A DNA stretch of 37,212 nucleotides, from the IMG/VR virus record IMGVR_UViG_3300001533_001615, positions 1 through 37,212 of that record. One strand, 5' to 3'. Source of the DNA: a virus. Positions 17,677 through 36,631 of the stretch are shown in pieces (position 1 is the stretch's first letter; each line of letters begins with the position of its first letter). Below the pieces are notes generated by a model. It made no database searches, had not been told where the DNA came from, and worked only from the letters and a program-made list of their open reading frames with translations. The position numbers and the translations under genes are program-made.

Positions 17677-20600
17677 TTATATAGGGTTATAATTTTGATA
17701 ACGAAGATAATTGTATCTTCTTACTAAAGGAGTTGTGTTTAATCCAACAACTCCATAATTTGAGTTTACAGTGTATGCATTTTGCGTTCTAGGAACTTCA
17801 ATAACACCCCAACTATAATCACCATAATAATTACTATAACCAAAACCCGTTAAACCATCATAACTAGAAATGCTCACCGTAACTTGTGCAGCAGTAGCAT
17901 TACCTTCTCCATAAACATCAGTAGAAGCAAAAGAAACAGAAATAACTTGATATATATTATCAATTCCTTTAGTCCCTATTCCAATAATTGATCCATCCTT
18001 TCTTAAAGAAGTAACTCCAGATCCAATTTTAGAATTAGAAACTTTAAAATAATAATTCTCTAAAAGTCCTGTTTGAGTAATTGTAGGAGTCACTATAGAT
18101 CCATTCCTTAAGTAGGAATTACTAGGGATAAACATATCAAATATTAATGCTGTAGATGCAAATCCAACACTAGTAGTTTTAATACCAGTAATTATTCCAA
18201 AATCTCCTTGATATGAAACACCTTCAATATACTCTGACTTTGTTTTTGGTGGTTCTATATAAACTAAGGGTGGATTTGTGTAAGTATATCCAAATCCCGC
18301 TGAAGTAATAGATATTTCAGTAACAATTCCAGAATTTATTTGAGAAGTTAATATTGCTCTTCCAGTACTTCCAATTCCAATTGGATTTTGAATTGCAACT
18401 ATTGGATTTGAATTATACCCATATCCGCCACTTATAATATCTACTGATTGTATGATCCCAGAAATAGAAACAATAGCAGTTCCAATTGACTGCACTAATT
18501 CACTATTATCTAAAATCTCAATTGAATTTCTTATATCTCCAGTCGTATTTTCATTTTCAGCGTCAAATATAGTTTTTACATTATCTACAAATATTTGAGT
18601 TGAACCAACACCAACGGAATTTATAATATTACCTAAAGGGAAAATTCTTGATTCATAACTTGGCCTATCTTTTCCTATCTCAATACCATCAACAATAGTA
18701 TCATTTCTTTGTTTACACCAAGTAACAGGTCTTTGCAAAGTTGTATTAGATGTTATACCAATAGAATTATATGGATTGGTTTCTAATGTATCTGGTAAAA
18801 TAATATCACGAACTAACCTCTTATTTTCTGTTAATTTATAATCATTACTTGTTATTCTTACAGTATCACCAGTTTTGATAGTTTCTTCAATATCAACATC
18901 AATTACATCTACACCTGGTGTTCCTTTATAGAATAAAATTCTACATTTTGATCCAGACTTTGGAGATTCTAAAAATTCTATTAAGCTTCCTCCATCAAAA
19001 ATATAAGAAATATTAGGTTCCTGTAAAACATCGTTTACAAATATTAAAAGAGTAGCACTTAAATCAATATTAGATCCTTCCTTTGCGACAATAGCAAATC
19101 TTTCACCATTATCAGAAATTGGAAAAGTTTTTCGGAATCCATCAAATAAATGATCAATATCATCTATTTTTTGTAACTCACCCATAGACCATCCACTAAA
19201 TTCATCTTTATATGTTCTATTAACTATAATAGAGAAAGGTTCAAATAAAATATTGGAATCTGTTGGTATTCCAGAAGTTCCTCCAGTTTGTACTGTTAGT
19301 ATATCTCCAACATTATAAGAGTACCCATAATTTTTAATCTTAAAGTCAATTACACTTGATCCTTGACCTACAACTATATCAATTTTTGCTTGGGATCCAA
19401 TACCAGTATTTGGAGATTGATAAATTAAGTTTAAGTTTGAATATGAAAGAGGATCATCAAAAACAACTTCTGGAGGATTTGTTGATGTATATCCAGATCC
19501 AGGATTTGTAATTGCTACACTTACAATATGTCCACCTAAAACTGTTGCTGTACCTATAAATTCAATATTTGGAGATGATCCACTTAGTGTTTGTACTCCA
19601 ACACGAACAATTGGTTGAACTCCGGTTCTATATCCAGAACCGGAGTTTCCAATACTAACACTTTGAATAGTTCCTGCAATAGAAACTATTGCCGTTCCTC
19701 CTGCAGATACTAATGGTTGATATCCAAAACCATTACTAGATCCTACAGATACAATTATTCCACCTCTTGGAACATTTGCATTATTGGGATCATATAAAGC
19801 AGATGTTGCAGTTCCAGTAAAATTCAACTGGGTTTGTGATAAGTTTTCGGATAGATTGTAATCATTTTCTGGACTTTGAAATATACTATTTACTAAAACA
19901 ATTGAATTTGAGGTTGAAAATCCCGATATTGCACTTCCCTCTGAAGTTATATTAAAATCTTTTCTTACCGCATTAAAACTAGAGCTAATATCATCAAAAA
20001 TATAATTATTTCTATATGTTTCTTTATTTGAATCTAGTACTCCAGATCTTATAAATGCTCTACCCTGAAAAGTTGATCTAATATTAATATCTCCCTTTTC
20101 TTCATCATATATTGGACCATAAGGAGCTTCTGAAAAATATAAAGTATTTCCAATAATATTATAGTTTCCTTGTATTTTAGTAATTAGAGTATTTGAAGAA
20201 TGTGTAGATAATCCTGTTCCCATAAGAGGTCTTTGGACTTCTACAAATGTTTCACTACCAACACCAACAGAAGAAATTTTCATAATTTCATTATCAACTT
20301 GAATTAAGTCTCCACTAAAAAATGAAGTTATTCCTGAAAATGGTAAAGTTGTATCAAGCAAAGCAATATCATCTACAAGAAGTGAAGTAACTGCTGTTGA
20401 AACTATTGGTGATTGAATTACATTATCAATTAAGATAATTACTTTACTGTTTTGTTTTTTTGATGTTATATAATGTCTATTTCCTATACCAACAGAAGTA
20501 AAATCTATGAGTTTTGGTGGAGATGATAAAGAATCAATAGGTGAAGTTGTTAGTCCAATGTAATTTTCATCAAATTTATATACATATAAATTTCCACTCA

Positions 20601-34763: not shown

Positions 34764-34865
34764 AATATAAAAAAAGATAAAAAGGGGGGTTTACTTCAAA
34801 AAATTTACCAAAAATTTTTTTTATATTCTCTATATCACTCTCTCGTTTTGTCACCTCTGTAGGTT

Positions 34866-34883
34866 AGGGTAGTTACCCTTTTT
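34866..34883 (+). terminator. Plus-strand terminator-like hairpin
   Basis: AGGG, loop TAGTTA, CCCT, then TTTTT. The stem is short (extendable to AGGGTA/TACCCT with a very tight loop). It would end a plus-strand transcript; none is otherwise evident. The interval 34764-34963 holds no convincing gene. Confidence 0.3.
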
Positions 34884-34963
34884 ATATACGGGCACCGAAC
34901 GCCTTAAGAACCCTTATGGGGGGGCATCGCTACGCTTATAAGAATCACCCACAAATCAAAACG

Positions 34964-35917: not shown

Positions 35918-36094
35918 TTAAATTCTTGTAAAAGGTAGACTTAAATCCTCTACATAACTCTTAATCCTCTCATTTCCTGATAGATCAAATACCTTGCGCC
36001 AGTTGAGATTATAAGGATTAAAGTCCTCATTTACTTCCATTTCTAATGTAATCCTGTACTTGTTCTTCTGTCCTTTTGTAAGAGACTTAAGCAT
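35918..36094 (-). CDS. Small conserved cyanophage protein (58 aa)
   Basis: ATG 36094 gives MLKSLTKGQKNKYRITLEME, VNEDFNPYNLNWRKVFDLSG and NERIKSYVEDLSLPFTRI. The pattern (LKSLTKGQKNK.RIT.E.EV..DFNP, then a Trp and YVEDLS) matches a small protein family in T4-like cyanophages whose role is unknown. It has its own near-consensus promoter at 36121-36149, with a start site near 36114 and a leader of about 20 nt; no clear ribosome site. This suggests early expression. Confidence 0.82.
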   Translation of the reverse strand: MLKSLTKGQKNKYRITLEMEVNEDFNPYNLNWRKVFDLSGNERIKSYVEDLSLPFTRI

Positions 36095-36193: not shown

Positions 36194-36222
36194 TTGACTT
36201 TTCGGCGGTCTTATGGTATTAT
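36194..36222 (+). promoter_or_regulatory. Near-consensus sigma70 promoter (plus)
   Basis: Plus strand: TTGACT (36194-36199), 17-nt spacer, TATTAT (36217-36222), with TGG before the -10. The start would be near 36229. It is the only clear plus-strand promoter in the window and faces the repeat-bearing RNA unit. Confidence 0.85.
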
Positions 36223-36266
36223 GCTCGCCAAGACCACAAGAACCAGAAGGGTTTAGAGAAATAATA

Positions 36267-36368
36267 ACACATAAAGAAAGTCAGTTACACAAGAACTCAA
36301 GACACATAAAGAAAGTCAGTTACACAAGAACTCAACACATAAGAAGAGTTAGTTACATAACAAGAACA
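36267..36368 (+). repeat. 35-nt-period direct repeats in the small RNA
   Basis: The 34-nt unit (ACACATAAAGAAAGTCAGTT followed by ACACAAGAACTCAA) is identical at 36267-36300 and 36302-36335. A diverged third copy (ACACATAAGAAGAGTTAGTT, then ACATAACAAGAACA) runs from 36335 to about 36368. Confidence 0.93.
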
Positions 36369-36370
36369 AG

Positions 36371-36405
36371 AGAGAGAAAGTGTCCCAAATACCTTCTCTC
36401 TTTTT
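36371..36405 (+). terminator. Rho-independent terminator of the small RNA
   Basis: AGAGAGAA (36371-36378) pairs with TTCTCTCT (36394-36401), with further A-U/G-U pairs outside, loop of 15 nt, then T-run to 36405. On the minus strand no U-run follows, so it acts on plus-strand transcripts. Confidence 0.8.
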
Positions 36406-36435
36406 AATGCTTTCTTATGTTTAATAAAACATTAA

Positions 36436-36472: not shown

Positions 36473-36631
36473 TTACACAAATTCGTGTAGATAATAGTCT
36501 ACTGTAACCTTATAATGATCTGCTAATTCTTGAATTGATGGTTCAGAAGTATCTCTATGAGAGATGAATAGATCTAGACTCGATTCAGAGCAGAACTCTT
36601 GATACGAGTCTTTTTGATTGATTTGATCCAT
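36473..36631 (-). CDS. Small hypothetical protein (52 aa)
   Basis: ATG 36631 gives MDQINQKDSYQEFCSESSLD, LFISHRDTSEPSIQELADHY and KVTVDYYLHEFV. It is acidic; the end (IQELADHYKVTVDYYLHEF) looks like a small helix-turn-helix-sized segment also known from small cyanophage proteins. It overlaps the end of the 58-aa frame upstream by 58 nt in another frame. A terminator follows. Function unknown. Confidence 0.62.
   Translation of the reverse strand: MDQINQKDSYQEFCSESSLDLFISHRDTSEPSIQELADHYKVTVDYYLHEFV

Follow-up and report, generated by a model that had tools for sequence, protein, structure and literature searches.

A conserved promoter and AT-rich core in T4-like cyanophages, frequently flanked by host-type DnaA boxes, as a candidate replication origin

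T4-like cyanophages belong to the best-studied viruses of the sea, but we found no replication origin described for them in the open literature. Titles and abstracts, to which this search was confined, described no cyanophage DnaA, oriC, or replication-origin element, and a comparative genomics paper on cyanobacterial myoviruses (PMC3037559) makes no mention of DnaA or origins. Here, we ask what function is served by a short intergenic locus of such a phage, which reads as a small transcription unit pointing against its surroundings. The window, meaning the whole 37,212-base stretch of DNA analyzed, is an IMG/VR virus record with cyanomyovirus-like gene content, including homologues in Synechococcus T4-like phages and a gene to which PHROGs gives the name ferredoxin. 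Overlapping mechanical ORFs aside, its long genes all lie on the minus strand. The locus, at 36194-36406 on the plus strand, is flanked by a minus-strand gene of 58 aa (35918-36094; phrog_12516, function unknown) and a convergent minus-strand ORF of 52 aa (36473-36631).

The unit begins with a promoter at 36194-36222, composed of a -35 hexamer TTGACT (36194-36199), a 17-nt spacer, and a -10 hexamer TATTAT (36217-36222) preceded by TG. It matches the consensus at 10 of 12 positions and predicts a start near 36229. Eight sites of the TTGACT-17-TATTAT class were found in the region against 5.7 expected, which is within chance by consensus alone; the promoter is credible because it is kept in relatives, not because of its score. 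A start block that is conserved among relatives, GCTCGCCAAGACCACAAGAACCAGAAGGGTTTA, occupies 36223-36256. Behind it lie two copies of a 34-nt repeat, ACACATAAAGAAAGTCAGTTACACAAGAACTCAA (36267-36300 and 36302-36335, identical at 34/34 nt), and a diverged third copy at about 36336-36367, an array that TRF describes as 2.7 copies with a period of 35. RNA folding places a strong hairpin terminator with a U tail at 36368-36405. Its stem is long (AGAGAGAGAA...UUCUCUCUU, then Us) and interrupted, so a simple terminator scan gave no match. The predicted transcript (36229-36406) contains no ATG, and the longest ORF initiating within it has 14 aa; a mechanical 64-aa ORF at 36213-36407 begins within the -10 box, 5' of the predicted start. 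The first-pass annotation had reported this promoter, two perfect repeats and one diverged copy, a Rho-independent terminator, the lack of a start codon, and an orientation opposite to the neighboring genes, and each of these observations was borne out. At the level of sequence, the window holds a complete plus-strand non-coding transcription unit.

The same annotation had proposed that the RNA acts as a sponge or decoy. Under this explanation, the A-rich repeat RNA would, in infected cells, bind a protein or RNA of the host or the phage, and a complete unit with promoter and terminator, no ORF, and an unstructured repeat region speaks in its favor. Folding of the 178-nt RNA gave a minimum free energy of -26 kcal/mol (z -2.4). 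Without the hairpin, z was just -1.6, and the repeat region is therefore essentially unstructured. An Rfam search of the element matched no family. We rejected a structured RNA on two grounds: the RNA shows no excess folding when its terminator is left off, and no Rfam family matches it. The same two grounds count against a regulatory small RNA or sponge.

The conservation of the locus is informative about which of its parts matter. Other copies of the 34-nt repeat were sought by DNA search and none were found, and a blastn comparison of the complete unit with phages returned chance matches only. Relatives were reached only via neighboring genes, the conserved start, and the core described below. 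A neighboring 61-aa gene has 18 relatives among viral contigs, and in three of these (L004, L014, and L018) the promoter and first transcribed bases of the window recur with 79-80% identity, in a gap between genes that lies close to the same neighbors. A pattern built from the promoter and start block matched 14 contigs, a looser version matched 33 (chance matches among them), and a scan for the core matched 54. Isolated phages were reached by blastn with one family member, through its core block, and a 62-nt query comprising the core and DnaA boxes reached many more. In total, the family comprises 57 non-identical versions collected from virus contigs and about 20 named cyanomyoviruses, including S-PM2, S-CAM1, Syn1, Bellamy, and S-SM2. 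Every version occupies a gap in the gene run, and many have the same neighbors. Several candidates were set aside along the way. L067, L068, L074, and others had the core pattern with no upstream promoter and are unrelated sequences; a blastn match in S-SKS1 is coding sequence; and ACG-2014c/S-MbCM6 (L108), which has three boxes but no recognizable promoter or core on that strand, was not counted as a full element.

Family members share a fixed order: TTGAC, about 17 nt, a TATAAT-like hexamer, the block GCGGGC-TAAGAC-ACAAGAAC-AGAGG-ATTTA, an A-rich stretch often bearing variable tandem repeats, and finally AACACTNAAC-TATGTTTTTTAATACATTT. In our alignment of 31 sequences, TTGAC is invariant, partly because it served as the anchor. 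The distance from TTGAC to TAAG-CACAAGAAC is constant in the window clade and was not produced by the anchoring, and the promoter is kept in relatives together with this start. In the S-PM2/S-CAM1 group, the -10 hexamer is poor and the interval from TTGAC to the TAAG block is shorter by about 12 bp. The first ~25 nt of the transcript are conserved across the alignment, a further point for a regulatory RNA.

The repeats behave differently. Their period is 10 in L007 and L055, 20 in L053, 21 in L034, 31 in L009, 33 in L022 and L056, 35 in the window and L006, and 42 in L004, and copy number differs in near-identical contigs (L009 vs L010; L026 vs L028). Autocorrelation over 25 non-redundant loci peaks at 10 nt (z 12.6), a signal dominated by the strongly repetitive members. 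The S-CAM1/S-PM2 group has no array, and its putative start is just about 15-25 nt from the core. Because the repeats vary and are sometimes absent, the repeat RNA is not the conserved part of the element. Conserved repeats in related phages, which the first-pass annotation had suggested looking for, were not what we saw: unit, length, and copy number all vary, and whole clades lack the array. In the sequences compared, the repeats are a variable accessory, roughly helix-phased in several lineages, and such phasing would suit iterons or an unwinding element acting at the DNA level better than it would an RNA sponge. Of the earlier proposal, then, the non-coding unit stands and the sponge or decoy function is not supported. 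The repeats are the least conserved part, the promoter-like start, the core, and, in most marine members, the DnaA-box clusters are kept instead, and the AT-rich core and boxes are conserved better than the RNA body. We consider a regulatory small RNA an unlikely account of the locus.

The AT-rich family core, TATGTTTTTTAATACATTT, occurs with at most two mismatches once each in 9 of 15 isolate genomes and nowhere else in them, with a control count of zero. It lies 51-248 bp from the -35 hexamer across the 57 versions. For T4 oriF and oriG, a promoter plus an A+T-rich unwinding element, all in about 100 bp, is sufficient (PMC3016281), and a promoter directing RNA into such an element at a distance of ~100-200 bp, as expected of transcript-primed origins of the T4 type, is what this family presents on sequence evidence. 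The window carries a diverged core copy, TATGTTTAATAAAACATTA, at 36416-36434 on the plus strand, which agrees with TATGTTTTTTAATACATTT at 15/19 positions (0.2% of shuffles reach 15/19) and forms the perfect inverted repeat ATGTTT-AATA-AAACAT. The terminator precedes this copy, and the predicted RNA ends before it. We count the window as a family member because of its promoter and start block and its place beside the 58-aa gene.

Most marine members have TTTTCCACA, which is the consensus DnaA box of cyanobacteria (PMC4674748; PMC2275245), in 2-4 copies flanking the core. Across 15 isolate genomes there are 2-12 copies per genome, and in 13 of the 15 the locus holds 2-3 exact copies no more than 60 bp from each other, a frequency among isolates that is biased upward because most of the 15 were fetched with a box-containing query. 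The two exceptions are S-BM3, with one exact box at the locus, and P-TIM40, with none. Clustering inside each genome is not subject to the query bias. When 600 permuted 9-mers were counted in four whole genomes, none attained three copies per 100 bp and no more than 5 of the 600 attained two, against 2-5 copies of TTTTCCACA per 100 bp at or near the locus. The 37-kb window contains no exact box, and none was found at the core in the window's freshwater relatives, Bellamy, or P-TIM40.

The boxes also resemble host origins in their arrangement. When bacterial genomes were scanned with the exact phage double box, TTTTCCACAGGTTTTTCCACA, many proved to contain it, several cyanobacteria among them, and at most of the cyanobacterial loci inspected it lies within a local box cluster. 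Five cyanobacterial loci were checked with Pfam; in four the double box is between dnaA and dnaN, and in the fifth it is beside dnaN. The phages therefore carry the DnaA-box arrangement of the host origin.

Two other box arrangements were seen. DSL-LC03 has a second cluster of five exact boxes at 80507-80579 (L105 2119-2191), about 330 bp from the core. In L026, L027, L028, L030, L032, and L033, two inverted boxes form a perfect hairpin, CCTGTGGAAAA-CTA-TTTTTCCACAGG, directly 5' of the promoter, a position that in other contigs is taken by another terminator-like hairpin.

Box clusters at a single locus with a promoter beside them could also be read as a site that titrates DnaA in the manner of datA and stops host replication, or as a DnaA-controlled switch of phage transcription, and the second group in DSL-LC03 would fit either role. 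However, 2-3 boxes would titrate little DnaA, several members have promoter and core but lack boxes, and both roles leave the AT-rich core and the phased repeats unexplained. We regard titration or a switch, in place of an origin, as improbable, the least probable of the alternatives weighed here.

The element also keeps its place in the genome. In isolates, it sits in a gap of a gene run encoded on the opposite strand. In S-PM2 and Syn1, it lies between T4-GC 805 and the 2OG-Fe(II) oxygenase gene GC 412, and an oxygenase gene is also near it in S-CAM1, S-RIM32, S-RIM44, Sf-CH3, and Sf-CH11. The locus maps to ~9,700 in S-PM2d, ~57,450 in S-CAM1, and ~58,730 in Syn1. As a test of position that is independent of the sequence of the element, we inspected the region 5' of the 58-aa gene (phrog_12516) in phages sharing that gene. 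The element was present there in six phages (Bellamy, SynMITS9220M01, S-SM2, S-SCSM1, S-SRM01, and AG-345-O18) and was not found there in P-TIM68, S-B05, or S-CAM9. The S-PM2 record (AJ630128) annotates tRNA-Asn and tRNA-Leu over the core and DnaA-box locus at 19177-19333 (L153); ARAGORN found no tRNA on the same stretch of the record of an S-PM2 deletion mutant.

Many relatives have hairpin terminators just 5' of the element, which has convergent genes on one side. Both features would agree with a bidirectional terminator or insulator between gene blocks, and we weighed this together with a leader of a lost gene and an RNA anti-CRISPR. An insulator does not account for the boxes or the core. 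As to a lost gene, a plus-strand protein gene behind the promoter, sought in relatives as a refutation of the non-coding unit, was not seen, nor was any plus-strand ORF there, and most of the repeat periods are not divisible by 3. A protein hidden within the element itself was rejected for the same periods and for the lack of a conserved ORF. An RNA anti-CRISPR (Racr) or CRISPR array, which would hold a CRISPR repeat with spacers or as a single unit, is made less likely by tandem head-to-tail repeats that have no spacers, and Rfam, the one resource searched for CRISPR direct repeats, gave no match. As a group, these explanations are also improbable, a shade less so than titration.

The conservation of a promoter-like start, a core, and DnaA-box clusters points to a function at the DNA level, most likely the initiation of replication. 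Promoter consensus, conserved start, core, box clusters, repeats, and a common genomic position all lend support, and we think it reasonably probable that this cis-acting element, conserved among T4-like cyanophages (Kyanoviridae), is a replication origin that is activated by transcription and makes use of host DnaA. In the mechanism we propose, host RNA polymerase would start at the promoter and transcribe the A-rich, iteron-like stretch toward the AT-rich unwinding core. In members that have TTTTCCACA boxes next to the core, host DnaA would bind these boxes and open the duplex with the aid of transcription or an R-loop, and the phage replisome would load on the opened duplex. The RNA would arise as a by-product or serve as a primer, and would not act as a sponge. 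That transcription, DnaA binding, melting, R-loop formation, priming, and replication initiation occur at the element is what we infer from its layout.

Each part of this putative origin has a counterpart in a known system. T4 oriF/ori(uvsY) and oriG/ori(34), R-loop origins from the same T4-like superfamily, likewise place a promoter before an A+T-rich unwinding element within ~100 bp; they differ in having MotA-dependent middle promoters, no DnaA boxes, and no shared motif, whereas the cyanophage element has a sigma-70-like promoter, a conserved core sequence, frequent DnaA boxes, and an R-loop that is putative. T4 oriE combines an early promoter with evenly spaced 12-nt repeats, or iterons (PMC3016281), and is similar in its early-type promoter and its short, evenly spaced direct repeats kept in place among relatives. 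Its repeats, however, are 12 nt long and lie by repEA/repEB, while the cyanophage unit and period vary and some members have no repeats. Cyanobacterial oriC, between dnaA and dnaN (PMC4674748), shares the TTTTCCACA clusters, including the identical 21-bp double box; the phage element has fewer boxes, no adjacent dnaA or dnaN, and a core and promoter that are not known from oriC. In the phage lambda origin (pR/pO), iterons and DnaA boxes occur together with transcriptional activation (PMC3985674), and this origin so resembles the element in repeats, transcription across the origin, and host DnaA sites. In lambda, the iterons are located within the O gene and are bound by the phage O protein, and no phage initiator is known for the cyanophage element.

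Some observations run against an origin. T4 oriE, oriF, and oriG tend to lie near a transcription-strand switch and a shift in compositional bias, and the cyanophage locus is at neither. It is inside a same-strand gene run, and no turning point of GC or AT skew was found at the locus in S-CAM1, S-PM2, S-SZBM1, or DSL-LC03, where skew tracks gene orientation. In the window, the lack of an exact box, the diverged core, and the terminator ahead of the core also count against an origin, as do the missing boxes at the core of its freshwater relatives, Bellamy, and P-TIM40 and the poor -10 hexamer of the S-PM2/S-CAM1 group. Its box-less copy would presumably work in the same way, but its status as an active origin is less certain than that of S-PM2 or S-CAM1.

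More tentatively, and with slightly more doubt than confidence, we suggest that cyanomyoviruses have a single conserved origin that copies the host oriC code, with tandem TTTTCCACA boxes next to an AT-rich core, and adds to it a promoter of its own and phased repeats that evolve fast. Unlike T4, these phages would then start replication via host DnaA, and in lineages like that of the window, from which the boxes would have been lost, the transcript and repeats would take over. With a candidate mapped in about 20 named isolates, both the site where replication starts and the use of host DnaA by phages that encode their own replisome become directly testable. An origin would also explain a locus that has been annotated as empty or, in S-PM2, as doubtful tRNAs.

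Two further features of the window were recorded. A 347-aa minus-strand ORF at 334-1377, overlapping the end of another ORF, has similarity to DUF559/MTES_1575/Vsr-type endonucleases and is possibly a homing endonuclease. At 34848-34891, an intergenic stretch consists of a 26-nt sequence, GTCACCTCTGTAGGTTAGGGTAGTTA, with TTTTTATATA after it. Bellamy and S-SM2 have the identical stretch and at least six relatives a nearly identical one, and it is possibly a conserved leader or promoter of the minus-strand gene.
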